From: Physcia stellaris
Lineage: Eukaryota; Ascomycota; Lecanoromycetes; Caliciales; Physciaceae
Length of the DNA: 64,000 bases
Direction: 5' to 3'
NCBI GenBank assembly: GCA_018902385.1
Contig: JABSSW010000069.1
Span: 124,001 to 188,000 of the forward strand
Shown piece by piece: positions 45,365 through 64,000 of the stretch. Under the pieces are notes generated by a model. It had not been told where the DNA came from and searched no databases. It was given only the letters and a program-made list of their open reading frames with translations. The position numbers and the translations under genes are program-made. How positions within the stretch are numbered: position 1 is the first letter of the stretch; every line of letters starts with the position of its first letter.

Positions 45365-48300
45365 CTATCGAGCCCGTCCTTCAAGCTCTCTCAGCACAGC
45401 CTCAGTCCACTTGGTATGTCTATGTACCAGTCCCAAAATTCTCCGTTGCCCTTCTAACGCTGTTTTCTGTAATTTCACCGCCTCGGCTACATCTCGGTCT
45501 ACAGCTCTTCTCGCAAGCACCACACCAATACTGTTCATGGTCCATAACGTGTCCGGGTGCTCGTCTCCTAGTGTCTGTTTCCTTCCTGCGTATGCTTCAC
45601 GGTGATAATGAAGCGCGAGGTCATACTCTCCGTTTTCGAAATGGCACTGTGCAATATCGCCCAAAAGCCATAAGCAGTGTGGATGCTCGTTTCCAAGGAG
45701 AAGCTGGCGAATGTCGAGTGCTCTTCTCGTCTGTGAGATGCTCTCTGTAAAGCGGCACTGCTTGCGATAGACGCGGCCGAGGGTGCTGAGCGTCCAAGCG
45801 ATTTCAAGGTCAGTTGTTACACCGGCAGTGGTGCCATTCATAGCCTGCAGCGCTTTGAGGTGCATGTTCTCAGCATCTATCAGACGCGATTGGTGTCGGT
45901 ACATCCGGCCAAGCTCATTCTGGGTCCATACGACTTCTCTAATATCCGATTTGGGGGTTCTACTCAGTATCGAGAGTGCCTTTTCTTGAGTTTCGGTTGC
46001 TTTCTCGACGTGCCCCTCTTGATCATACAGGACAGCTAGAGAATTGAGAAGCCATGTGAAGCTGACGTCCGAGCCGTCAGACTCCGCTTCTTGCATCTTA
46101 TATGCGCTTTCGAACAGTCGAACTCCGTGCTGAAGTCTTTTCACAGAGTTGAGATGGCGCGATAAATCGCGGACAACCATCATTCTTTCGAAATGTGTCA
46201 ACGATTCGATGTAGTGGGCTGCTGTAGAATTGCGTAGGCTGTCCTCGTTTTCGCAGGACATGTGCGTCGAGTTCGAATAGTCCAGAAGTATCAAAATCAC
46301 ATCAGAAGCCCAATCAAGGTAAATGGGTAACTCAATACTCGTAGGCTCCGCCAGCCAAACAAGCAATTTTGATTGAAGGGAGAAGAGCCTCTGCAGTGGA
46401 AATACATTTCGTTGCCACTGTAGAAAATACCAAATCCACTGTTGACGACAATCAGAGATCATGAAATCGATGATCATTCTGTGGGTTGAACGATTATAAG
46501 TGGACTCGATGACATGCTGAAGCCATGACAGGCATGCATAACGTGTCAAAGGTTCATTTATCGCGCTGTTGGCACGTTTTGTATCAAAAGCAGCAGCCAG
46601 TAAAGCTAGGCAACCCTGCGAGATCCGTTGGTGACATTCGTCCTCAGCTAGAAAGAACTCTTCGAGATCTCCTTATCTTTGTTGCCGTCAGGGACTGTAC
46701 CCAGCAAGTAGTCTGCTACTGATGCATGAAAAGGTCTCACTATTCCATTGGCTGGATCGACTACAAAGAATTGGGAACAAATTCCAGCGACCAACCCCGG
46801 AAATGGCTTTTGGGACCTATCAAATTCAGAGATGCCGGTAGTTAGTCTTGTAGCTAGTGCTGTGCAAAGCTCTGGGAGACTTAAGGGCCTCATGACACAG
46901 AGAATCCAGCAAGCAGCATCTTTGAAAAGCTCACGCTGTGCACGGCCTTGGACAGATATGGAACGAAGTCGGCTGGTATAAATTCCGCTTAGTCCTGCCG
47001 GCAACTGCAAGAGACTGTTTTCAACCTCTCGAGGAGAGCTCGCTGTCTTGAGATGTTCCAGCATAAGGCTCGCCCATAGAAATATTCCATGTGCGGAAGA
47101 CTGGAGCTTCTGGGACACTTTGCTCCCAAGCTCGCCGTCACTTTGCGCGAAAGTGGATGACCCGACAGCAAGCGATACGAAACTATCCAGATCGGTCTGT
47201 GTTTGAGAAGATGTTATGCGTATCTCGGGAAATCGCGATAGCAGATTCCGTGTTTCCGAAGAGTCTCTGCTCACTATGAGGATTGATACCGTATTGCTGG
47301 TTTGGACAAGCTGCCTTAAGTCATGGATGACTCTTCCAGTCTCTATGCTTTCGTCCAAGCCGTCGAGTACAATACAAACCTTTCGATAAGACTGAAGGGC
47401 AGATTTCAACAGCTCAAGAGGTTTATCATCTTCTGATACCCGGACACGACCAGATCTCTGAGACTGCTCAAAGGCCAATGTCAAAGGCGGTGGCAGTTTG
47501 TTACTATGTTGGATCAACTGATAAGTAAGAGTGGACATAATTTTCGGGAATGTGCCACTGGATTGGTCGTTTTTGTCACAGAAGAAGTAGGCCAAACCAT
47601 TCGTCTCGTCGGCAGTCCTGGCTAGCTCCTCGATTATAGAAGTACTCAGTATAGTTTTACCTGTTCCCGGCACACCGTTAAGCCACAGAATTCGTGTGTT
47701 TTCAAATCTCCATTTGTGGAATTCTGAAGTAGCAAAAAGCCAACTTCCACTAGGACACAATTTCTTAGCTGTTTCCCTGGCAAGTACTTCGGAGGCGGGG
47801 CTTGGACAGAGCCATCTCAAGACTTCTTCTCTCTGGATAAGTCAACTCAGAAACTCATAGAGTACCTATACTCAAATACGATACCTTGTCTTGTTCAGAT
47901 ATAGCATGAAAATGGCGCATGAACTCTGACGTCAGTCTGGTCTGACTGTCGAGAGACTGATACAACTTCTGACGATATGCTAGGGTAGCCTGGTCTCGTA
48001 GAGCTTCGATATGAATGGACAGTGTGTTCAGGATATCTTGAAACTCGGTCTCGAAATCGCGCCAGATGGAATGAGTAAACAAATTGACGCCTTTTAATGT
48101 GTAAGCGAAAATTCTAGAACACACCGACCTATGTTCTGACCAGGTTTACGGAAAATCTTTCGAGACTTCGTGAGAAATTCTATGATGTCGGTATAAACTA
48201 AGCAGATGCTCCTCCGAAAAGCAGAACTATTTCCAATGATGGTTTCGTATTCTGAGAAGACAGATACGACAAGGCCTAGGCGCTCCAGGGTAGCAATAAC

Positions 48301-48659: not shown

Positions 48660-49320
48660 CTTTGAACAGCGAAATGAGTCCGCTCGAACAGTCCGATGCA
48701 GGTCTTATACCACAGCCTTGCATGAAGGCGTCCTGAACGCCAGGTTGGCGGTGTGATCATATGAGTGCGCCCGAAGGCACAGGTGGGGCTGTGCATTTGG
48801 GGGACAAATATGGCCTGATTGAAGCAAAATCAAGATCAGGACTACGGCAAGTTGAGGGGCAGCAAAGCAGTTTGTTGGGGCTCTGAGACTACTGTTGTTG
48901 TATGATGCTTGCTTTGATCACATTGATAGCCCTAGCCCTGCTGTGTGCTTTTAAGTCTTAGGAGTCCCTCTTAGGAGTCCCCGACTTGGTGTGGGTGAAA
49001 TTTGTGGCGAGTCCCTTCACAAGAGTCGACGACGCCTCTTTCGAGGTCGATCTGTACCGTCGCGCAACTACGCTTTACCTAGCTCTCTGAGCAGCACCTG
49101 AAGCAACTCTTCAAAACCCCCAACACTGACTTACAAGCAAGCTCCCCAAGCTCGAACAAGTCTCAAATGAAGTGTAATTTTACAGAGATGAAATGATCAA
49201 ATGATCAACATTACGCGTCGCTATGCACATTTTCATACGAAATTCAATCTGTAATGTGAAATTCTGAAAAGTGAAATGAAAAATGTTCATGATGATGATT
49301 TTTTCTCGTTCAGACTAAAC
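48660..49320. other. Promoter side of the NACHT-TPR gene and AT-block boundary
   Basis: Normal base composition holds to about 49,150, then grades into the AT-rich block by about 49,320. A short direct repeat of CTTAGGAGTCCC lies at about 48,958-48,982. No gene is seen. Regulatory sites for the NACHT-TPR gene should lie here. Confidence 0.5.
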
Positions 49321-50367
49321 GTGAATGTTAATGCAAAAATGACGAAATGAAAAAAATTTGAAAAAAATTGATTTTTAATTAAATAAAAAATCAATGTTTC
49401 ATTTTTTTCATTTTTCATTTTTCATTTTTTTTTTGCAAATATTTGCAAAAATCAATTGTAAAAATTTTCACATCAATTTTTGATATTGTATATTTCAATT
49501 TTTCGATTTTCGCATATTTTTTGTTGTAATATTTCGTTCGATTTAATTAAAATTCGATTTCGTTGATTTTTTCGTTGTCGCAATAATGTTTGTCGATATC
49601 AAATTCATTTTCATTTTAAATAAAAACAATGTTGTCGTCGTCAAAAAAACAATGATAACGATGTATTCAAATTCAAATTTAACAAATTTGTAATTTTCAA
49701 ACGAATCATTTTCGACGTAAAAAATCGTAATCGAATTAAAAAATTTGTTTTACGTTTTCGTTTTATTTCAACGCGTTTATTTAAAAACATTTTTCGTTTC
49801 GTTCGTTTTCGAATTTTTGTTTTTCGTTCGATCATTTCGAAAATCAAATCGAAAACGTAAATGAAAACAATTTTAACGTTATAAATTTTGATTTTATCAA
49901 TTTCGACAACGACGACAACGACGTATTCGACGACGACGAATTTTAAATTCGACGATTACGCGCACGCGAAAAATTTTCAAATAACGAAAATTTCGTTCAA
50001 AAAAAAAATTTTTCGTCGTAAAATATTTTTTCAAAAAAAAAATTAAAAACGTATCAAAAAAATTAAATGAATTTATTTTCATTCAACGTACGTTGTTTTC
50101 GTTGTTTTTTTTACATTTTTCAAATTCGTATTTCGTTGTCGCGTTTATTGTTCAAACAATCGAAATTCGTACGAATTTTTTACACATGATTCATAATTCG
50201 AAATATTTCAAAATGAAACGAACATTTGTCAACGTTTTGTTTCGATTTTTGCAAAACGTTTATCACGATCGTTTGAATGTCAAAAATTTTTTCAAATTCA
50301 TTTTTTTGAATTGTATTAAAAACAATTGTCGATACGCGTTCAAAATTTTTCAAAAATATTTTTTTTT

Positions 50368-51990
50368 TGTTAATATTGAAAAAATCATGAATAATTATCA
50401 TTTTATTGTTTTGAATTTCGTTGTTCGATAACATACATGCAAAATGAAAACACAAAAATGTGCGAATGTCAAAACATTAATTTCAACAAAAACGCATTAA
50501 TTTTGTTTTCGTCAAATTATATCAATTGAATTTTGATTGCAACATTTGCGAAATATATTTGCGATGATTGTATTTTCAACACTTTTTTACAACAATCGTT
50601 TGTGTTTTTTGTTTTGTATTTTAACGAGATCAGTTTGATTTAGAATTTTCGCGCAAACTTTTTCAACGATGTGACTTTTTCAACGATATGTTGTTTGAAA
50701 TTTTCGAGCAAACTTTCTCGATGACGTAAATTCTGTAAAGTTAAATTATACATCGATGCGAAAATTGCAAAAACGAACGAATCGAAATCAATATGACGTA
50801 AAATCGATTTGTAAAACGTGCGATCGAGCGAAAACGTTCGAAATTCTGAATTTGTTTTTTCATGAAATGTTGCATCGATGTGAAATCTAATATCTAAAAT
50901 TGAATAAACGATATATCATGAAACAAATATCAATTGTTTGAACAATACGATATTGACGAAAATGCAAATCACATAGAATCTTTCTATAATAAAATATTCT
51001 GTAAAATCGTTTAACGCGAATGATCGATCGAGAAGAATTTTGATCAATTTTGCGTTCGTATTGTTTAAAGTCGATAAATTCAATCAATACATAATTCACG
51101 TTTTCAAAGAAAAACGATTATATTTCATTTTATCAATCATCAAAGTTTTCGAATTCGTACAATTGTTGCACGACATGCATCGCAATCATCAACAACGTAT
51201 AAACTTTATATAATTGTTCAAAATTGTAAAATTCTTCATGCGTTTTCCGACGATGTAAAAATCACGTAAATTGATTTCTTCGTTGTGATGTTGTGTTGAT
51301 TTTAACGTTTACGATCTATTTCGATGAATTCTTATTGAGAATTTTTTTGAAAAAATTCACGAACAAACTTGTCATGATTTGATAACATCATTGTGAATTT
51401 CAGAATTTTCAAATACTGTTTGCGACATCAATGATTCAATATCTATGCAATTTGACTGTAAAAATTCATAAAATATGTCAAATGATCGAAAAATCGATAA
51501 AAAAAATAATCGCATCGAATGCGCGACATGCATTACGAACATATATCGATGCAAAAATGCAAAATCGAACTTTTTTGATTTGATTAAAATTTGTCAGAAA
51601 ATCAAATCGATTAATATGCGAAAAAAATCAAATATTTTCAATTTTTGATCGAATTTTTTTTTTTTTGATCGAGTTTTTGCTTTGCAAAATCGAATATGTA
51701 ATGATTTCATAATACGTTTTTTCGAAACGATAATATGTGACTTCTGATTGTATAATACGTTTTCTCGAAATCGTATTATTTAATTTGTTCGTTTTTCTTT
51801 AACAATTGTTCGTACAGTACGTCAATATGTTTTTTCGAAATTGCATTGACGAACTGTATTGTCATTTTTTTTTTTTCGTATTTATCGAGCGATTAAAATT
51901 TCAAAAATAATAAAAAATAAAGACGAAATTAATCGTGTTAAATCAAAACGAAATCACAACAAAAATAAATTTTTATCATATTCGTTAAAC
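50368..51990. repeat. Repeat A, copy 1 (least mutated)
   Basis: The copy starts near TTAATATTGAAAAAATCATG and shares long blocks with 53,773-53,973 and with 54,654-55,018 continued at 61,746 onward. It keeps several CT/AG sites (GAGCAAACTTTCTCG near 50,705) that are TT/AA in copy 3, so it is less mutated. The end is set by matches such as TTTAACAATTGTTC near 51,800 and weaker similarity to about 51,990. Element type unknown; it may be part of a second transposon. Confidence 0.6.
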
Positions 51991-52627
51991 AATAAACAAA
52001 CAAAACATACAACAATTTGTAAAATTTTTTCAAATTGATGATAAAACGAAAAAAACGAAACATCGAATTTCATTAAAACAACAACAACAACAACAATTTT
52101 TAATTTTTTCAAATCGATTAACGATTAATAGAAAAAAGAACGAACAAACAAAACAAACAACACGTTAACTTTTTCAAAGTAATGATTTTTCGAGAAAAAA
52201 TCAATACTTTCTCAAAGCAAAATGAAAAAAAACAAAACGTCAATAACGTATTTTCATGAATATTTCATTGTTTTCGACTTTTGAAACATTTAACATGATT
52301 CAATCGATAAATCGATAAATGACAAAACGTTTTTGACAATGTTTGCAAACAGAAAATGAATGCGAAAATGTCGAAAAAGAAAAACGCATCGAAAAAAAAA
52401 ATCGAAAAATTCGCGAAAATGATATGCGAATCGACTGTTTGATCGATGCGTGCATTGTTGAAAATGTTTCGAATTTGATCGATTTCGAAACAAATGTAAT
52501 TATCGCATGAAAATATAAAGTAATACGTGTTTGTATGAAATTATTGTTTTTAAAATTACATTTGTCAAAATTGCGTAAAAACAACAATTTGTTTTAATTT
52601 GATTGCAAATCAAATGAATTCGATTTT

Positions 52628-53391
52628 TCAACGAACATGCGAAACAAATCGTTCACGATGAAATAAAATTTCGATGATATAAATTTTCGAAACGAAATAA
52701 ACGAACAAATAACGTTTGCATTTTTCGAAAATTTGCATATCGATTTGAATGTCGCAATCGAAAAACGAAAAAATTTCGATGCAACGATTGATCGTGAAAC
52801 AATTTCTGTTCAAAATATCGATTTTCTTGATGTTGCAATCGACGAAAATTTTGAAAAAAATGTAATCAATGACATGATTATCAATTTCGATAACGTAAAA
52901 AACGACGAGATGATCAATCGAAATGACGAAAAAAAATTTCGATTCGAAAACAAATGAAACAACAAATTCAACAAATTGTTGAACAGATTTCGACTTTTTA
53001 ACGTGTCGAATGCGAATATGTTCGTGAAATTTGATATTATTATTAAATTTGATTGAATGTTTGCAACGTTTGCATGTATATTTTTCAATTCGTTTTTTGA
53101 TTAAACGAATTTTTTTTTGTTGTTTTAATAATTTTTTCGTTTTTTGTTTGATTTTGTTTTTCATTTGCAATTCGTGTTTTCGCATCAAATATTTTTTTTG
53201 TTTTTTTGTTTGAGTAAATCAATTGCATTTCGAAACATTAATAAAACTTGAATTCGTGTGTTCGTGATACAACGATCGAAAATTTTGCGTTTTCGAATCA
53301 TTCGCGTCGAAACAAATGCAAAAAAAAAATGATCAAGAAAAAATATCAGATTTCGAAATAAAAATGAATGTGAACGATACGAAACTCGCAA
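52628..53391 (-). pseudogene. Degenerate transposon ORF with C2H2 zinc finger
   Basis: Two adjoining minus-strand frames (53,391-53,185 and 53,188-52,628) read as one broken protein. A Lys/Arg/Gln-rich stretch is followed by YTCKRC...H...H, a C2H2 finger (C-x2-C, then H-x4-H), and then a long tail. A basic stretch plus one finger of this form is common in gag-like ORFs of fungal retroelements. Codons have drifted toward Ile, Phe and Lys as expected from the mutation bias. No reverse transcriptase is seen nearby on this strand, so the element is truncated. Confidence 0.5.
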
Positions 53392-53772
53392 AGATTGTTG
53401 ATTTCGTAAAAGAAATAAAAGTCGTTATTCTGATTGAGTGATAAAATTCGCGTAAATATTTCGACATCGTATTCGTAAAATAATTAAATAAATCGAAAAT
53501 TGATTGTTTCGAAAAACTTCGCAAATAAATAAATGTTATCGATGTAATTGAAAATATTGAATAATATTGATCGTTTGTATCAAAATATTGAATATTGTTC
53601 GATGCAATTAAATCGTTTCTGATTTGACAAAATTGAATATTTTAATGAAATTGATTATTGTTGAAATATTGCAAATCGATTGTTGTATTGTTCGACGATT
53701 AAATATTACGTGTTCATAACGTGTTGTAATTGATATTAAATGTAACGAAAATTGCTAATTCGATTTTTATAA

Positions 53773-53973
53773 TTTATTGAAAAAATCATGAATGATTATT
53801 ATTTTATTGTTTTGAATTTCGTTGTTTGATAACATACATGCAAAATGAAAACACAAAAAACGTGAAAATGTCAAAATATTAATTTCAACAAAAACGCATT
53901 AGTTTTGTTTTCGTCAAATTATATCAATTGAATTTTGATTGCAACACATTTGCGAAAATTGTATTTTCAACAA
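53773..53973. repeat. Repeat A, copy 2 (short fragment)
   Basis: About 200 bp match the left end of copies 1 and 3: GAAAAAATCATGAATGATTA, ATAACATACATG, GAAAACACAAAA, TCAAATTATATCAATTG. The copy ends near GTATTTTCAACA and then diverges. Confidence 0.65.
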
Positions 53974-54653
53974 TTAATGACGATGAAAATGTATTGCAAC
54001 GTTGTTTTTAAATTTTTTCATTCGAATATTCAATACAAATTGAATTTCGTTATAAATGCGTATCGTATTCGTATTATAAAAACGTATTTTTACAAAACGT
54101 GAACGTCGATCGTGACGTGACACAATAAAAAAATTTGATTCGAATCATTCGTACAAATCAAAACGATTTTGTTAATTGATTGATCAAAATCGATTTTATT
54201 AAATGAAAATTGAAAAATTTCGTCGTCGTCGAATTAAACAAAAAACAATTGAATATCAAATTTTTTCGTTTCACGCAAATTCAAAAATAAACGTATTAAA
54301 TTCGCAACAATGTTAATATTACGTTCAACAACAATTTTTGTTGCAACGAAAATTGCAATCATAAATATATTGATATCAAATGTCAACAAAAAAATTACGA
54401 CAAATTCGAATGTATCAACAAAATCATTAAATGATTAATCGTTTTTTTCTTTTTTCGTTCAATTTTCTTTTTTTATTTTTTTTTTTTCGAATTATTCATT
54501 TCGTATGATCATGTCAATTTCAATTGAATAATCGTCAAAAAAAAATTTTTGTATAATGTCGTTTTCGAAAATGCATTTGATTTCGAAATCAAAATATCAT
54601 TGAAAACGACAAAATGAAATCTTTATTTAAAAAATTATTTTGATCGAAATTTC

Positions 54654-55018
54654 GTTAATATCGAAAAAATCATGAATGATTATTATTTTATTGTTTTGAA
54701 TTTAATTATTTTAATAACATACATGAAATGAAAACACAAAAAATGTGCGAATGTCAAGACGTTAATTTTAACAAAAACGCATTAATTTTTTTTTTCGTCA
54801 AATTATATCAATTGATTTCTTGATTATTTTTTTGCGAAAATTGTATTTTTCAACATTTTTTCACAATATTCGTTTGTGTTATCTGTTTTGTATTTCAACG
54901 AATTCAGTTTGATTTAGAATTTTCGTGCAAATTTTTTCGACGAAAACGTGTTTTCGAATTTTTTCAACAATGCGTATTTTAAAACTTTTCAACGATGCGT
55001 TGTTTGAAATTTTCGAAT
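54654..55018. repeat. Repeat A, copy 3, left part, interrupted by LTR element
   Basis: This matches copy 1 from 50,368 up to TTTGAAATTTTCGA near 50,700. It is cut at 55,018 by the inserted LTR retrotransposon and resumes at 61,746. Confidence 0.7.
55014..55018. other. Target-site duplication, left (CGAAT)
   Basis: The five bases before the left LTR read CGAAT. The unoccupied copy at about 50,700 has CGAGC. With AG to AA and CT to TT (the last C is followed by the T of the LTR), CGAGC becomes CGAAT. Confidence 0.7.
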
Positions 55019-55255
55019 TGTTACGAACATGTTTAACAAATAAATCTGACAGATAAATAATTGATATGATAAATGATTGAACAAATATGTTTAAATCGAA
55101 TTATGTTTTAATTTTCTGACGAGATTAACGTGATTTGAAATTTGACGTTCGCACATTGTTTGCAATTTCATCATTTTGTATTTATTTGTTTTTGCAAATT
55201 TATTGTTTTCGTTTAATTAATCAATAATACGTTTATTCAAACACGATTCATGATA
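55019..55255 (+). repeat. Left LTR
   Basis: This starts TGTTACGAACATG and ends TTCATGATA. It aligns over its full length to 61,508-61,745. The terminal pair TG...TA departs from the usual TG...CA. Confidence 0.9.
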
Positions 55256-55835
55256 TTACAATAAATTTTCAATTTTTATCGTTCGTCGTGATACGCGAGC
55301 GTTTAAAAATAAAATTTCAAATCGATTAAGTTTTTTTGACGAGACAAACGACGAAAAAGCTCTGCTGATCAGACAAACGATCAAAAAATATTTTTGACGA
55401 GATATTTGACGAAAATCGTGAAATAACAAATCGAATTTTCACGCAATCGACGATAGAAAACGACGAAAAACGAAAATTGATTCGATTAATTTTTTTTTTT
55501 TATCATTTTCAATTTTTCATTTTCAGTTATGATTCGAAATCATCACGAAACAACTTTTTTCGAATTTTTTATTTCGATGAAATAACGTTTCAAAACGTTA
55601 CGCGTCAACGTGAATCGTATGTTGCATAAAATTAATGACAATTTTTTTGACGAAAATTTCGTTGATCAATTTAAACGTCGTCGATTTGTATCAACGATTT
55701 TTCATAAAAATGAAAAATGAAAAAATCATTTATTTTTGAATATCGTCATTATCGATCAATTGAAATGATAAATCAATTATAAAATCGTCGATTTTTAAAA
55801 AATTTGATCGATTACGTATCGATCGTGACAACTAT

Positions 55836-56105
55836 TTGAACGTTTTGATTCAATATCAAAATTTGTACAATATTGTCAACGTCGATCGTGATGAATTGAT
55901 CAATACGAATGTCGAATTAAATAAAATTCGTCGAAAATTGAATATTTTGAAAAACGAATACGAAAAACAACGTGATTTACTTTTGATCAAACAAAAAAAT
56001 TACATTTTTTTGAAAAAAAATTACGACGTTTTATTAATGAAAATTCGCGATCGTGCACGAAATCTTAACGTCGACGAAAAAAAAACGACGATAAAATCAA
56101 CGTAA
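55836..56105 (+). pseudogene. Gag-region remnant, coiled-coil rich
   Basis: An 89-codon open stretch rich in Lys, Asn and Glu with heptad-like spacing (ELINTNVELNKIRRKLNILK) sits where gag is expected downstream of the left LTR. It is a remnant of the element's structural gene and is not likely to be expressed. Confidence 0.5.
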
Positions 56106-56841
56106 TTAATTTTTTTCAAAAAACAAACGACGTTTCAAAACACATTCAAATTTTTTTAAATTTATCGATGAAATAAAATTCATTTTGACGTGTTTGAAAA
56201 CAAAAATACACGATAAAATGACGATCAACGTTGATTATTACGACACGAACATAATCGCAATCATTATTGTGATTAATTGAATTGAAAATGATATCGATAA
56301 TCACATACAATCGATTCGTGATATTGATATGAATTATTTCAAAATTTGACATATGATGTTGAAATTTTTGAACATTATTTACGAAAATTTTGATTTCAAA
56401 CGCAATATGCGTAATCAATTTCGAACATTGATCATGAATATTCAAAATTTTCAATTTTTTTATTTCATTTTTTTCGTTTTAGCAATTCAATCAAATTATA
56501 ACGAAATCATCAAAATCGAAAATTGATGAACAAAATTTTTGAAATTTGAAAAAAACGATGAATTGTATATTCACGTGAATTTATCACGTTCGATGAAATT
56601 CGAATCATTTTGCAACAAATATACAATCGACAATCGAATTTTCGAAAAAAAAAATCGCGACACGTTAACAACGTTTTGAATTGTTTCAATTCAAATCAAT
56701 TTTTGTTGTTTCGATTTCGATATTTTTTACAAAATTTGTTATTTCGATTTTTTTTTCGTGAAATCATCAACTCATTTTCATTTTAACGTTGAAATCAAAA
56801 TTCGTGATTCGATGATCGATAAATTGATCGTCACGAACAAA

Positions 56842-56883
56842 TGTTTCACATGTGATGAATTCGATCATGTTTGAAAAAAATGT
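56842..56883 (+). pseudogene. Gag zinc knuckle remnant
   Basis: The reading KCFTCDEFDHV, then a TGA stop, then KKC gives C-x2-C-x4-H-x4-C, the CCHC knuckle of retroelement Gag. The stop falls where such knuckles often carry Trp (TGG to TGA). Confidence 0.7.
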
Positions 56884-57044
56884 TCGAACGTTCACAAACA
56901 TCAAAAACGTCATTGACACAAAATGCAAATGTTTTATATGAATTTAATTGACGAATCGAACGATTTTGATTCGAAAAATTAATAATTTACATCAAAACGC
57001 GATTGATGAATGTTTAAAAATTTTTTTTTATTCACGATGATAAT

Positions 57045-57242
57045 ATGTTTGATTTTTTCATCAAACGATTTTTAATCATCAATTGTACGTTATTATTCAA
57101 CGATAATAAACATAAATTAGAAATTTTAATAAACATTGATGCAATTGATTATGCATTCATTGATAAAAAAATCGCGCAATTTGTATGCAACATGTTAAAC
57201 ATAAAATTTCGTATTTTTATTGAAATCGAAATCATTGATTGA
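57045..57242 (+). pseudogene. Retropepsin-like protease remnant
   Basis: A 65-codon frame includes LEILINIDAIDYAFIDKKIA, which corresponds to the active-site strand of Gypsy proteases, where D-S/T-G-A is followed by a Phe-Ile-Asp segment. The Ser/Thr-Gly pair is not present, so the active site is lost by substitution or a small deletion. Confidence 0.6.
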
Positions 57243-57867
57243 ATTCGACGATCGTCAGATTTTTTTTCAATAATTCATGTCATATATTTTAAATTAACGA
57301 TAAAATTGCATTTCGAATTGATCGTTTTTTTGTTAATTATCGATTTGAATAATCATTCGATAATTTTAAAAAAATCGTGAATGAACAAACATGAAATCAT
57401 ATTGAACATAATTTACGATAAATTGATTTTCAAATCGTTTAAATGCAATCATCATGACAATATATTCAATCAAATTGTTCAAATTCGACGTTTGAAAATT
57501 TTCAAATCAAATCGTCGATAAAATGTATTTAATTAACGTCGTGATATCGTATTATCGCAAAAAAACAATTCGAAACATATAACGATAATAAAATTTCGAT
57601 ATATCATTTTATTTCGTTTCAAAATCAAATTTTTATTTTTTACAATTGAAAACGAATCAAATGTATTCGATTCGAAATGTTTCGAATATTCAATTCATTC
57701 GAACGTCGATGACGATGACGAATCGTCAATCATCGAATCAAATAATTCAAAAATTGATATCACAACGATTACGAAAACGACATTCGTCAAAAAAAAATTT
57801 GAAAAAACAACGCAACAAACGTTGAAAAATCAAAAAACAACAATTCGAAATTTTTTCATTTTCGAAA

Positions 57868-58810
57868 TTGAATTTAAACGATTCAATGAATATCGCGATA
57901 ATTGATGCAATTTTTTTGTTTGTTCGTCGATTTCAAAAATCGAAAACAAAAAATACAATGTTTTTTCATTACGATCAATCAAATCGATTTCGCGTTCAAA
58001 ACATTGCGAACGAATTTGAATCGTTAAAAATCGTTGTCATGATTAAAAAATTTTTGAAACACGAACAAATCAAATCGATTTTTGAACGTATAATGAAAAA
58101 AATATCGAAATATTTCAAACATTTGACAAAAATATTCGATTTTCAAAAAATAATTGAATTGTTATCGCATCGAATTTACGATCACAAAATTGAATTTTTA
58201 AACGATAACAATATATTGTTTCGAAACAAAATATATTTTTTGTTCGAATTCAAATTTCAAAAATTCAAAAAATATTTGAAAAATAATTTTCAAAAAATTT
58301 TTATCGTATTCAATTAAATTGTTTACGTTTCGTTCGTTTTATTTGCAATCAAATCAAATAATCAATTACGTTTGTGTGTGAATTATCGACGATTAATCAC
58401 ATCACGAAACGCAATCGATATTTCATTTTTTGATCGAAAAATTTTAATTAAAATGCAAAATTGCAAATATTTGATCAAATTGAATATTATATCGATTTTC
58501 AACAAATTTCGAATGAATGAAAAAAAATGAAAAATTCATCACGTTCGTTATTTTCATGAAATCGTACAAATATCGAATATTATTTTTCGAATTAATCAAC
58601 GAATTTGCGAATTGACAACATTATATGAACGATTTTTTGTTCAATTTTTTAAACGATTTTTGTCAAATTTATTTAAATGATATTTTCATTTACAACAAAT
58701 TCAAAAAAAAAAAACACATCGTTCACGTTCGAAAATGTTGAAAAAATTCAAAAAAATCGAATTACAAATGAATATTGAAAAATGCGAATTTTTCAAAAAA
58801 ATGACATTTT
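57868..58810 (+). pseudogene. Reverse transcriptase remnant
   Basis: The open stretch to 58,317 ends with the region that precedes RT palm motifs (ELLSHRIYDHKIEF). Further downstream, in other frames, LCVNYRRLI, KLNIISIFNKFRMNE and LQMNIEKCEFFKK correspond to family motifs (YRxLN, the K-x-D-I-x-x-x-F-x-x-I-R motif with D changed to N, and the NxxKC motif). Stops and frameshifts separate them. Confidence 0.8.
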
Positions 58811-59055
58811 GAACGTCATATTATCGATAAAAAAGTTTTCGCATGAATTCAAAAAAAAAAAAAATTATTGTCAATTGAAAACGTTTTACGAATTTGAAAA
58901 AAATACAAATTTTCGTAAATTTCGTCAATTTTTACAAACGATTCATTCGTGATTTTTCGAAAAAAATTCGAATTTTCATTCGAATGATTAAAAAGTTCGT
59001 GAATTTCGAATGAATTATTGAAATCAAAAAAAATTTTCAATTTTTCAAAAAAACG

Positions 59056-59277
59056 ATGACGAAAATTTTCATATTACGACATTACGATCGAATCAAACAA
59101 ATCATTTTGAAAATTGATTTTTTTGATTACGTCAATGCGAAAATATTATTTCAATACGACGACGAAAAAATTTTACATTTTGTAATTTTTTATAATCGTA
59201 ACATGATTTCAATCGAATGCAATTACGAAATTTACGACAAAAAATTGTTAATCATTATTCGTTGTTTAAAATATTGA
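59056..59277 (+). pseudogene. RNase H remnant
   Basis: A 73-codon frame reads from ILRHYD through KIDFFDYVNAKILFQYDD to IECNYEIYDKKLLIIIRCL. This is the Ty3/Gypsy RNase H order: the first catalytic Asp region, the L-x-Q segment and the NY-x-x-x-x-K-E-L-L segment. The first catalytic Asp of D-A-S-D appears kept, but its neighbours are changed to Phe (Ser codons TCN to TTN). Confidence 0.85.
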
Positions 59278-59980
59278 CGTTTTGAATTTGAAAACATTGA
59301 AAAATCGATCAAAATTTTCATCGATCACAAAAATTTGAAAATTTTCATGACGTCAAAAAAATTAATTTTTCGTCAAACTCGTTGAACAAAAACTTTTTCG
59401 AAATTCAATATTGTCATTCAATTTTAATTCGAAATTCAAAACGTTAAAACAAATGTTTTGATTCGTATGTTTGATTTTCGATTCAAAAACGAAATTGATG
59501 AACGACATCAATATCGAAAACAAATATTGTTTATTTCGAAACGATTCGAAATTCACGCGATAAAATTTGACGAATTTATTTACGAACGAATTTTGATTGT
59601 CAACAAATTGACGATGATTGCACGATATATCGTGAAATCATCGAACAAAATTTTATTTCAATGAACGAAATCGATTTACGAAATTGCAATAAAAAAAACG
59701 ATGTTTTATATCGAAAATCGATTATAAATATTTGTCGACGTTTTTTTACTCGTTGATTTTTTCAAAAAAATTCATGAATTTTCGATTTCGAAACATTAAA
59801 ATTTCAATCGTATGAAAAATTTTATACGTCGCGATTATTATTAATTTAATATGCGCAAATTCGTTCGTCGATACGTACGCAAATTGTTATAAATGTCAAC
59901 GTACGAAAATTTTCAAAAATCGAAAAATAATTTATTCATTTTTTTGATCATATTTTTGCAACGTTGAATCGACATATTCG

Positions 59981-60816
59981 ATGAATTTTATTATCGAATT
60001 ATTCGACGTTCACGATCACAACGTCATTTGCACGATAATGACAAATTTAATAAAAAACGTCATTACGTGTTTTGCATCGTCGACGACGAAAATACAAATG
60101 CAAAAATCACGATTAAAATATTTATCAATTACGTGTTTCGTACGCATAAATTTTTTTTTTTTATAACGTTTCAAATCGAAAATTTCAATTTATATCATTC
60201 GTTTGACAAACATTTTTGCAAAATTCTCGACATCAAATGTAAATTTTTCATCGTTTTTCATTCAGAAATCGATGAACAAATCGAAAAAATCAATCAAAAT
60301 ATCGAAAAACAATTGCGACAATATTGCAATTACATGCAAAACGATTGAAACGTTTGATTATTCATGATCGAATTTGCAAACAACAACGCGATATTTGCAA
60401 CAACAAAATTATCATCATTTTTTATCAATAAAAATTTTCATTTTCGTATGAATTTTTCATCAAATTTTATTTCGTATGTTACAACGAAAAAACGATTTTT
60501 GATCGTCAAAACAGAAAATATTATCGACACGATACAAAATATTTTCAATTACGTACGAAATCATGCAAAAATGATTCAAAAACGTATGACAATTCAAATC
60601 AACAAATATCGAAAAATCGTGAAATACGTCGAAAAAATTTCGTTTTTGAATCGACGAAACATCAAAACGATCAAATCATTTGACAAATTTGATGACAAAA
60701 AATTAAATTTTTACAAAATATTAAAACGTAAAAACAATTTTTATCGATTCGAATTGTCAAAAATCATGCAAATTTACGATGTGTTTCATTGTTTTTTTTC
60801 GCAAAAATTTTCGTAA
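59981..60816 (+). pseudogene. Integrase remnant
   Basis: Three frames in series cover the catalytic core and C-terminal part: MNFIIELFDVHDH, then the segment ending INQNIEKQLRQYCNYMQND, then EFANNNAIFATTKLSSFF to FLNRRNIKTIKSFDKFDDKK and YDVFHCFFSQ. The order matches the rve core and the GPY/F-like module of chromovirus integrases. At least one frameshift lies near 60,060-60,160. Confidence 0.85.
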
Positions 60817-60852
60817 TTCATTCGAAAATCAAATCAATGAATTTTTGATTTC

Positions 60853-61045
60853 GTCATAATCAACGAGAATTTCGAATGAAAAATGAACGATATTTTGAAA
60901 TTTCGATATCATTACAATCGTTTTCAATATCGTGTCAATTGATCGAATTGATTTCATGATCGAACGTGATATTATGTCGATAACGAAAAATTCGATAATG
61001 TTCGCGACGTGATAAACGATTTTTATCGTAATCATTTCACGACAA
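60853..61045 (+). pseudogene. Chromodomain remnant
   Basis: In one frame, INENFE, a TGA, KMNDILKFRYHYNRFQYRVN, and further TGA codons before YYVDNEKFDNVRDVINDFYRNH match a chromodomain: the E-W-x-V-E-x-I-L start, the Q-Y-x-V-K-W core and the W-E/Y-P segment. Each of the four TGA stops sits where Trp is expected or plausible. Chromodomains target integration to heterochromatin. Confidence 0.7.
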
Positions 61046-61492
61046 CAAATTCAAAATCGTTCAAAACGTTAATTTCAATATTTCAAATCGTCGTTAACGA
61101 ATCAAATTTTTAACGAATTGTCGTCGTTTTCGAAAAAAAATCGTCATGTTGACATTAATCGAAATTATTTTCAATTAGTATTTGAAATCACGAATTCAAT
61201 GTTCATTCATTTCGTTTTTGATTTCACGATTTTTATTCAACATTTCAATTTTTATTATCATTTCGATGTTATTTACAATCAGAATTTACATCGCATAAAA
61301 ATTGAATCGTGTCAAAAATATTTTCAAAAATTGTCGTCAAATTTTATCGAGCGTTGAAATGACAATAAAAACAAAAAATGAAAAATGATGATCGTGAAAT
61401 TTTTGAATTTTGCAATTATACAAATGATCAACAAAATTTTCAACAACGTTTTCAAATTTCGAAACAACAACGAATCGTCGAAACGACGTTCG

Positions 61493-61507
61493 CGAAAAAA
61501 AAAATAA
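61493..61507 (+). other. Polypurine tract of the LTR element
   Basis: An almost pure A run with one leading G lies directly in front of the right LTR, where plus-strand priming occurs. Any original G after A or G would have been changed to A by the local mutation bias. Confidence 0.6.
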
Positions 61508-61745
61508 TGTTACGAACATGTTTGACAAATAAATTTGACAAATAAATAATTGATATGATAAATAATTAAACAAATATGTTTGAATCGAATTATGTTTTAA
61601 TTTTTTAACGAAATTAACGTGATTTGAAATTTGATGTTCGCATATTGTTTGCAATTTCAATCATTTTGTATTTATTTGTTTTTGCAAATTTATTGTTTTC
61701 GTTTAATTAATCAATAATACGTTTATTCAAACACGATTCATGATA
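61508..61745 (+). repeat. Right LTR
   Basis: By my count this differs from the left LTR at eleven sites, all C/T or G/A, plus one single-base indel. It has the same TGTTACG start and CATGATA end. Confidence 0.9.
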
Positions 61746-61750
61746 CGAAC
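61746..61750. other. Target-site duplication, right (CGAAC)
   Basis: CGAAC follows the right LTR. From an original CGAGC only the AG changes, because the last C is followed by A and is spared. This explains the mismatch with the left copy CGAAT. Confidence 0.7.
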
Positions 61751-62645
61751 AAATTTTTTCAATTTGATCAATTATTTAAAACGCATCGATGTAAAAATTT
61801 GACAAAAACGAACGAATGTGAATTTCGATAAATTTTGTTTCAAATTTTTTTAAAATCGAATTGAAAATTAAAAATCGAAATGAATAAAAAATTTTCAATT
61901 TTTTGAATTTTCATCGTTAAATGAAAATCGAACGAAAAAATAAAATCGATTATTTAAAATTGAATAAACGATCGATTTTTTTTTCGAATTTTTCAAATGA
62001 TTTTTAAAAAATGCGATTTTGACGAAAATGAAATCAAATTTGATTTGATACAAATTCGTGAATTTTTTAAATTCAAATTTTTTTGCATGAATTTTGAATC
62101 GATTCAAAAATTAAAATTTAAAAATATATTAATGACAATAAAATTAAAAAATTGATCGAAAAATCGATATTATTGATAAAAAAAAAATCGAATTATCATT
62201 CGAAAAAAATTTCATCGATGTTCGAAAAAGAACAAAATCGAATTTTTTGATTTAATTAAAATTTGTCGAAATTCAAAAAAATCGAAAAAAAAACGATTTT
62301 TATTTTTTTTTTTGAAATAAATTTTTGTTTTTGAATTTGAATTGTAATGAAATAAAATTCGATATTTTTCGAAATGTAAAAAATTCAAAATTAATTTTCG
62401 ATTTCGTGACGATTTTTTTTTCGAAAAACGAATTACGTCATTTTTGATTCGTCGAATTTTCGTGAAATATTTTTAAATCGTTTTTTTAACAATTGTTCAA
62501 TAAAAAAAAAATTTCAAATTTTTGAAAAATTTTTATAAAATTTGATCGAAATCGAACGATTGAATTTTCAAAAAAAATAAAAAAACAATTAAATAATTGC
62601 AAAAATTTTTTAAAAATAAATTTCGAAAATCATTTGTTAAACGAA
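61746..62645. repeat. Repeat A, copy 3, right part
   Basis: The sequence resumes the match to copy 1 at CGAACAAATTTTTTCA (copy 1: CGAGCAAACTTTCTCG). It continues through CAAAAACGAACGAAT, TTTTTTGATTTAATTAAAAT, TTTAACAATTGTTC near 62,490 and weaker similarity to about 62,645. Confidence 0.65.
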
Positions 62646-64000
62646 AAAATTTGAAAAAAATACGATCAAAAAAAATTTTTTCAAATCGAAATAAAAAAAA
62701 ATTGTTTATAAAATTTTTGAATTAAATTTAAAACAAAAAAATTTTTTTTTCAAATATTCAATTTTTCAAATTTTGAAATTTGTTTATAAAAAACAAAAAA
62801 CAAACGAAAAAAAAAAATAAAATTTGATTTCGAAAAATAATTTTGAAAATAAAACAATATTTTTTCGAAATCGATATAAAAATTTCGAATTTTTCAAAAT
62901 TATTTTCAAAATAAAAATTGATTATAAAATTTTTGAAATTTGATTGAATTTCGAATCAATTTTTAATTTTGAAATTGAAAATTTAATTTTGCAATTGATT
63001 TTTGAAAATAACAAAATTAACGACGAAAAATTTTGTAAATAAATGTTTCGAAAATTCGCATCGAAAATTTGAATTAAAATCAATTTTCGTTTTTTAAAAT
63101 AACGAATTTTTCGAAAAAAATAAATCGAAAATTGTTGATTAAATTTTTTTTAAAATCGTTTTTTTTTTAAAAACGTTAAAACGTAAAAAAATTTCGTCAA
63201 AATGCGATTTTCGTTTTGAAATCGATAAAAATTCGATTTTAAAATTCGTATTTGATTTTTCAAAAATTTTTTTCGTTTTAACGATTTGTTAATTTCGTTT
63301 TAAAATTTTTGAATGAATTCGTTTTTTTATTTGATTCGAATAATTTTGAAATCAAATCGTTGATTAAAAAAAATTTCGATTAATAAAATTTTCGAAACGA
63401 AATAAAAATAAATGAAATTTGATTTTTTCAAAATTCAAATTTTTCGATAAAAAACGCAAAAATTTTCGATTTTTAAAAATGCGATTGAAATCGTAAAATA
63501 TTTTCATTTTTTAAATATATTTATACGCGAAAAAAAATTTGAAACGTTTGAAAAATAAAATTTTTTTGATTCGATTATTAATTTTTCGATTATACGTTTC
63601 AAATAAATGTATTTCGACACGCGTAAATTGATTCGACGAAATTTTTTAAATAAAAAATTTAAAATTTTTTCGATCATAACGAAAAATAAAAAAACGATTG
63701 TAAATAAAAAAATAAATTTGTTTTTCGAAAATTTTCGTTTTTTATTCGAAAATTTCGACTTTTTTTCGAAAAAAAAAATATTTTGATGAAATTTAAATTT
63801 GTTGTCGAATTTCGTTAAAAATTTGAATTTTACGAAATTTTTTTTAAATTTTCGCGTATTTCGACGAACGAATTTTTAAAATTTATTTAAATGATTTTTT
63901 CGTGCTCAAATAAACGAATTTTGATTCAACGATTTGAAATAAATTTTTGCAAATTTTTTTAAATACATTTTTGAAATCGAATTATTGACGTCAAATTTGA

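Follow-up and report, generated by a model that had tools for sequence, protein, structure and literature searches.

A stretch of 64,000 nucleotides from Physcia stellaris (Ascomycota, Lecanoromycetes), contig JABSSW010000069.1, was analysed in full and is called the window here. It corresponds to C69:124,001-188,000, C69 being its contig in a genome of 44 Mb and 147 contigs. The window ends in an AT-rich island (49,205-64,000, delimited by dinucleotide counts with edges in 100-bp steps), in which C is nearly lost before pyrimidines (CpY, i.e., CpC and CpT). The island contains a mutated Gypsy-type long terminal repeat (LTR) retrotransposon at 55,019-61,765 on the plus strand. Comparison of this element with other copies in the genome shows C to T change on both strands, with CpC changed first and CpT second, and this is probably the work of a process resembling repeat-induced point mutation (RIP).

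The window is ordinary up to about 49,150. In the control region, 1-49,320, the GC content is 0.49 and the observed/expected (o/e) ratios of the dinucleotides considered below are 0.71-1.11. In 49,321-64,000 the GC content is 0.238. Here CC occurs once, at 51,247, and GG not at all (o/e 0.00 each), while CT and AG are reduced to 64 and 62 occurrences (o/e 0.10 and 0.09), most of them (56/64 CT and 50/62 AG) concentrated at 50,580-56,000. Neither CA (823, o/e 1.19) nor TG (799, o/e 1.24) is depleted, TA is low (880, o/e 0.41), and CG, at 874 (o/e 4.19), shows none of the depletion typical of basidiomycete-type mutation. The NCN trinucleotides of the same block, counted on both strands, comprise 1 NCC, 126 NCT, 1,622 NCA and 1,748 NCG; the 3' base decides whether a C survives, and no 5' base rescues CC or CT. 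The original prediction, made from the letters of this DNA, had described CC and GG as absent, CT and AG as rare, CpA and CpG as abundant and TpA as modest, and all of this stands except for the single remaining CC. It had also named a depletion of CpA equal to that of CpT and CpC as the observation that would tell against it, and CpA proved to be undepleted.

The left edge of the island lies within 49,146-49,320: the last genic CC/GG is at 49,146, the last CT/AG ahead of the clean stretch is at 49,315, and the 100-base bins from 49,201 to 49,900 hold no CC or GG. On the other side the island extends beyond the window to about position 73,900 in window coordinates (about C69:197,900), for a length of about 24.7 kb. 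To the right of that point ordinary DNA is back within a few hundred bases, and the genic flanks are normal. The block originally drawn at 49,321-64,000 was therefore right in composition and too narrow in its limits, since the island starts slightly earlier, at about 49,200, and runs well past the window. Its most extreme part within the window is 62,001-64,000 (GC 0.17, CpG o/e 7.0, CpA o/e 0.75), which is perhaps older or has suffered some CpA loss.

The LTRs of the retrotransposon lie at 55,019-55,275 (5') and 61,508-61,765 (3'), both on the plus strand, and are 92.6% identical. An open stretch at 59,968-60,348 (plus strand) matches the integrase part of the polyprotein of an unmutated copy and served as a probe; it has no Pfam match of its own above the cut-off. 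The polyprotein stretch downstream of it (60,358-60,816, plus strand) shows a weak similarity to a Tf2-1-like SH3 domain (E 0.0018, short of the cut-off), and a Pfam search with six mutated frames gave no match above the cut-off. Related copies are numerous. With the retrotransposon DNA, the scoring of 20 of 775 candidates gave at least 21 further places longer than 2 kb, 77-96% identical, and with the integrase stretch at least 150 places, every one of those scored among 647 candidates. Besides the query, three of these integrase places hold long stop-free open frames, namely the C12, C95 and C5 copies.

Two of them, C12 and C5, are family members free of the mutation. The C12 copy has an open frame of 1,151 amino acids and LTRs that are identical over 224/224 bp, and for most of its length the GC content is 0.50-0.55. 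Pieces of its frame match reverse transcriptase (E 2.1e-38) and then the integrase zinc-binding domain (3.4e-21), and the rve match falls short of the cut-off; this is the order of Gypsy elements, and the window element was typed by it. The C5 copy (L042, C5:1,163,594-1,169,000) is likewise of ordinary composition over the element. Intact copies with the same CpY-free composition had been named as a further observation against the prediction, and the composition of C12 and C5 gives it no such difficulty. The two copies are 95.3% identical to each other and were used as a control: their C/T differences fall in all contexts (CT 53, CC 50, CG 38 and CA 34), with a CpY excess that is mild next to that of the mutated copies. 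At L040/L041 (C12, about 56,150-57,400 and 64,300-65,500) the element is flanked by AT-rich tandem repeats, whose units measure about 300 and 150-160 bases.

For the comparison of the window copy with C12, and for that of thirty integrase loci, only columns gap-free at the site and its neighbours were kept, and at least 80% agreement was required in a 41-column stretch, C/T and A/G being counted as agreeing. In the window copy (5,415/5,640 columns kept) the C of the reference reads T at 759/787 CC and 627/663 CT, and at 111/716 CA and 64/723 CG. Grouped by 5' base the rate of change is 0.49-0.60 throughout, and TCA and TCG are mostly retained. One of the thirty loci (L009) is the window's own copy and was subtracted. 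For the remaining 29 the pooled values are 12,108/12,713 for CC (95%), 9,354/10,733 for CT (87%), 1,388/11,012 for CA (13%) and 774/11,395 for CG (7%), and each single locus has much higher values at CC and CT than at CA and CG.

The order of targets is best read from the C95 copy, which is half-mutated: CC is at 0.08-0.62 of expectation and CT at 0.62-0.88 across bins of the element. In its comparison, for which columns within two of a gap were dropped, C has become T at 746/963 CC (77%), 338/826 CT (41%), 23/864 CA (2.7%) and 20/895 CG (2.2%). The background, taken as T to C plus A to G, is 1.2% of A/T sites. Expressed as rates (-ln of the unmutated share), CC, CT, CA and CG stand at 1.49 : 0.53 : 0.03 : 0.02. 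The changes in this copy are also unevenly divided between strands. For example, CC is changed at 499/571 sites on one strand and 247/392 on the other, and in one 500-base stretch at 37/40 versus 3/29. The variance of the strand difference over 250-base bins is 0.0899, and 1,000 shuffles preserving strand and dinucleotide never exceeded 0.0319; this test was made on the one copy, C95. Strand-wise patches fit RIP rather than a slow decay of methylated cytosine on both strands. Strand bias is also a feature of RIP in Neurospora.

Ribosomal DNA (rDNA) provides a test that is free of assumptions about transposon ancestry. The sole 5.8S match returned (L051, C41, about 45,899-46,052) belongs to an AT-rich, CpY-mutated rDNA unit, and no ordinary unit was seen among the 39 of 2,644 candidates scored. 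The unit was compared with the conserved upper-case Rfam columns, using all printed blocks with conserved letters; the first lines of the small subunit (SSU), nearly all lower case or insert, were left out, and gapped SSU blocks were included. C reads U at 29/35 CC, 20/39 CU, 1/33 CA and 0/36 CG, and 71/89 of all changes are C to U or G to A. The SSU blocks are gapped, and 15/42 of their changes are of other types. Restricting the comparison to the best-aligned blocks gives 24/26 CC, 16/32 CU, 0/23 CA and 0/27 CG, with 54/57 changes being C to U or G to A. The SSU alignment also carries an insertion of several hundred bases.

Transitions from C:G to T:A were thus found on both strands in the window copy, in the thirty loci and in C95, as in RIP, and the CpA preference of RIP was found neither in C95 nor in the rDNA. 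The near-saturating C to T change at CpC and CpT on both strands that the original prediction had proposed is what the copy comparisons show, and the rDNA agrees. The tabulation by 3' neighbour across Gypsy copies, which it had suggested as a check, likewise sets CC and CT apart from CA and CG. The counts refine that claim into a hierarchy in which CpC is lost first, CpT second, and CpA slowly in old copies.

The signature extends beyond one family. Transposons, tandem repeats and the rDNA unit are mutated and the genic loci fetched are spared, so that on the selected loci repeats are hit with unique flanks nearly untouched. The tandem repeats beside the C12 copy are CC-free in bins that hold repeats alone. 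Composition was scored in 253 one-kb windows from the window and the fetched loci, a Gypsy-biased sample in which some bases are counted twice (L009 lies inside the window). GC content is below 0.35 in 135 of them, from 40 sources; CC o/e is below 0.2 in 130 of these, CA above 0.8 in 134, and CG above 1.5 in all 135. The CpG excess would mean that CpG in these repeats is not decaying. The usual RIP indices, with thresholds of TpA/ApT ≥0.89 and (CpA+TpG)/(ApC+GpT) ≤1.03 (as given in the available part of PMC12550465), miss the pattern: the first is passed by none of the 135 AT-rich windows, the second by two, and both together by none. The island block itself, with indices of 0.44 and 1.36, is on the negative side of both and would be classed as un-RIPed though its CpC and CpT are nearly exhausted.

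Two further features of the locus are a repeat unit of about 300 bp at 50,365-50,669 (plus strand), with more copies near 53,775-53,975 and 54,650-54,943, and a Copia-type reverse transcriptase (L043, C69:116,005-116,721), which lies some 7 kb upstream of the window's first base in a 571-amino-acid open frame whose composition is ordinary.

A genome search with PF00145 gave four matches at three loci, so that, as the original prediction had suggested looking for, genes of both the RID and the DIM-2 type appear to be present. L002 combines DNA_methylase and DUF7893 with a weak, sub-threshold BAH match and is called DIM-2-like from this domain architecture. L001 and L003 are RID-like by their motifs: both have the PF00145 domain and SPPCQ in motif IV, with EET (L001) or EQT (L003) in motif VI. 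The excerpted text of PMC6709928 gives EQT/EET as a mark of the RID/Masc1 group and names EET for Botrytis and Pseudogymnoascus; a pair of RID-like genes of which one is of the EET type is similar to the situation reported in some Leotiomycetes. In the catalytic part L001 and L003 share 40% identity over 174 amino acids, and in the N-terminal part 34% over 149 residues. L001 has a clean gene model of 513 amino acids with two introns, and by hand count its target recognition domain, between motifs VIII and IX, is about 73 residues long, within the short size (about 80 amino acids) of this group. In L003 a downstream exon with the last motifs is present and the splice junction is unsettled. A PDB search with the two RID-like exons returned bacterial-type methyltransferases and DNMT1, and for L003 also DNMT2, from which target specificity is unreadable.

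A RIP-like mutator of repeats with the order CpC>CpT>>CpA~CpG is the likely explanation of these data, with a RID-like protein as its putative actor. Such a process would turn C into T in both strands of repeats and select its targets by the base that follows: CpC would be hit most, CpT at about one-third of that rate, and CpA and CpG near background. Acting in strand-wise patches and in many successive rounds, it would eliminate CC and almost all CT, and the end state would have C only before A or G, low TpA and relatively very high CpG. Targeting may be due to one of the RID/Masc1-like cytosine methyltransferases (the EET- or EQT-type paralogue) with an altered recognition domain, a role suggested by the published association of RID with RIP. 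Its timing would presumably be that of RIP in Neurospora, around the sexual cycle, and the change would proceed through 5-methylcytosine or by direct deamination. The original prediction had implied an unusual specificity of a RID-like methyltransferase or of another deaminating process; the copy and rDNA counts uphold the CpY specificity, and for the actor a RID-like enzyme is the candidate. Whether the specificity of RIP itself has switched in this lineage, with a RID-like enzyme recognizing C before a pyrimidine and CpC first, is a narrower question, on which we lean slightly towards yes.

Several observations weigh against a RIP-like mutator of this kind. The integrase and other loci were located with mutated probes or family models and are selected rather than genome-wide. 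In C95 the rate also depends modestly on the 5' base (ACC 0.84 and GCC 0.73; ACT 0.46 and GCT 0.32). The pooled CpA loss in old copies exceeds the reverse-transition background, so CpA is disfavoured by more than an order of magnitude and not forbidden. Unmutated C12 and C5 coexist with many mutated places; as they are 95% alike, the process must be inactive at some generations or not acting now, although non-constant activity would be expected if a rare sexual cycle were required. Among eight Copia and DDE_1 loci, which are best-scoring matches and hence the least decayed, two are strongly CpY-depleted (DDE_1 loci L048 and L049), one partly (Copia L045), two hardly (L050 of DDE_1, L044 of Copia), and three are ordinary (DDE_1 L047; Copia L043 and L046). 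Stop codons are a last point. By the genetic code CpY change makes no stops from CAA, CAG or CGA; it makes TGA from TGG, and its damage is otherwise missense. TAG stops are rare by eye (1/150 rows of the integrase search and 3/137 rows of a second search), and TAA stops occur in many rows of both, which CpY change alone does not explain. They may come partly from CpA loss.

A different enzyme could be involved. A DIM-2-like methyltransferase, by methylating heterochromatic repeats at CpY where they then mutate, is an unlikely candidate in place of a RID-like one, given the presence of L002. The review in PMC13297926, as far as its available text goes, describes Neurospora DIM-2 as methylating all CpN with a preference for CpT, which fits CpT as a target; in C95, however, CpC is changed faster than CpT and CpR is hardly hit. 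Without any dedicated mutator, 5-methylcytosine at CpY in silent repeats could deaminate slowly and spontaneously, which would also give C to T changes limited to methylated repeats. This reading is improbable, as the CpC loss in C95 (-ln = 1.49) is more than 100 times the 1.2% background and the mutated sites are strand-patchy, unlike those of slow decay. Decay of 5-methylcytosine is not known to reach a CpC loss of that size. Decay of CpG methylation was also rejected; CpG has an o/e of 4.19 in the island, and none of the 36 rDNA sites is changed.

The strand-patchy change in C95 is what a cytosine deaminase of the AID/APOBEC or DddA type might leave, yet these enzymes read the 5' base, and in the window copy and C95 the 3' base decides with at most a modest 5' effect. 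APOBEC-like deamination was rejected on this ground, and a deaminase of either type is very improbable; a search with PF08210 (APOBEC_N) gave no match, but its control was also silent, and other deaminase families were not searched. Hardly credible, finally, is a composition that is ancestral or an artefact (an AT-biased element, ultraviolet light, bisulfite reads or misassembly). Ancestral AT bias was rejected on the normal composition of the unmutated family copies, the rDNA unit shows the pattern against an external standard, and the genic flanks of the island are normal. Ultraviolet light would strike C after a pyrimidine, and this signature was rejected since most TCA and TCG sites retain their C.

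RIP is commonly regarded as directed at CpA, and its standard indices measure the gain of TpA. Such tests would miss the present pattern, and RIP-negative verdicts from CpA/TpA indices are unsafe. If the specificity has switched, a class of fungi with active RIP would have escaped censuses based on these indices. Should the actor be a RID-like enzyme, the switch would be a natural one inside one enzyme family, and the two RID paralogues found here could reveal the residues that set the target. CpY targeting also alters the damage done to genes, as new stops are expected to be TGA from TGG and only rarely TAG.

Context-biased C to T mutation of repeats is found in other fungi with different targets. 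In basidiomycetes (Microbotryum, Rhizoctonia AG8) it falls on CpG/TpCpG, whereas here CpG escapes. The AG8 table shows the SNP density to be highest at CpC among the four contexts, but the text of that source describes a CpG bias (PMC4014442). Botrytis cinerea, Sclerotinia sclerotiorum, Magnaporthe oryzae, Colletotrichum truncatum and Anisogramma anomala share CpT as a major target with the present fungus, but CpA is a target in these species as well (main texts of PMC4352252, PMC10998396 and PMC6180176, in which the word CpC does not appear). The first of these texts, a study of ten genomes, lists CpA, CpT and CpG signatures. The available text on a Sclerotinia Tc1-mariner element (PMC4188875) has one mention of CpY and ten of CpA, with none of CpC or CpT. 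Monilinia is described as having CpC-to-TpT double changes (PMC8959702), and repeats of Stagonospora nodorum as depleted in CpC (PMC2621366), the classical or dominant change being CpA to TpA in the accessible portions of both. A survey of Ascomycota uses CpA/TpA indices, with control alignments that are CpT-dominated (PMC7882544), and a 2025 survey regards CpA preference as common to RIP-like defences (PMC12543289), again as far as their available text goes. CpT as a RIP target is thus already known, and a case in which CpC leads and CpA is spared was not found in the portions of the open-access literature searched. In Trichoderma reesei RIP also changes C to T in repeats, with CpA~CpG before CpT>CpC (PMC5496416, available section). 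A close parallel is RIP in Neurospora crassa, with RID and DIM-2, which is alike in the C to T change on both strands of repeats and in its near saturation, and a RID-like gene is found in the present genome. The same section of PMC5496416 gives the Neurospora order as CpA>CpT>CpG>CpC, as compared to CpC>CpT>>CpA~CpG here, and the dinucleotide that comes first in Physcia is the last in Neurospora.

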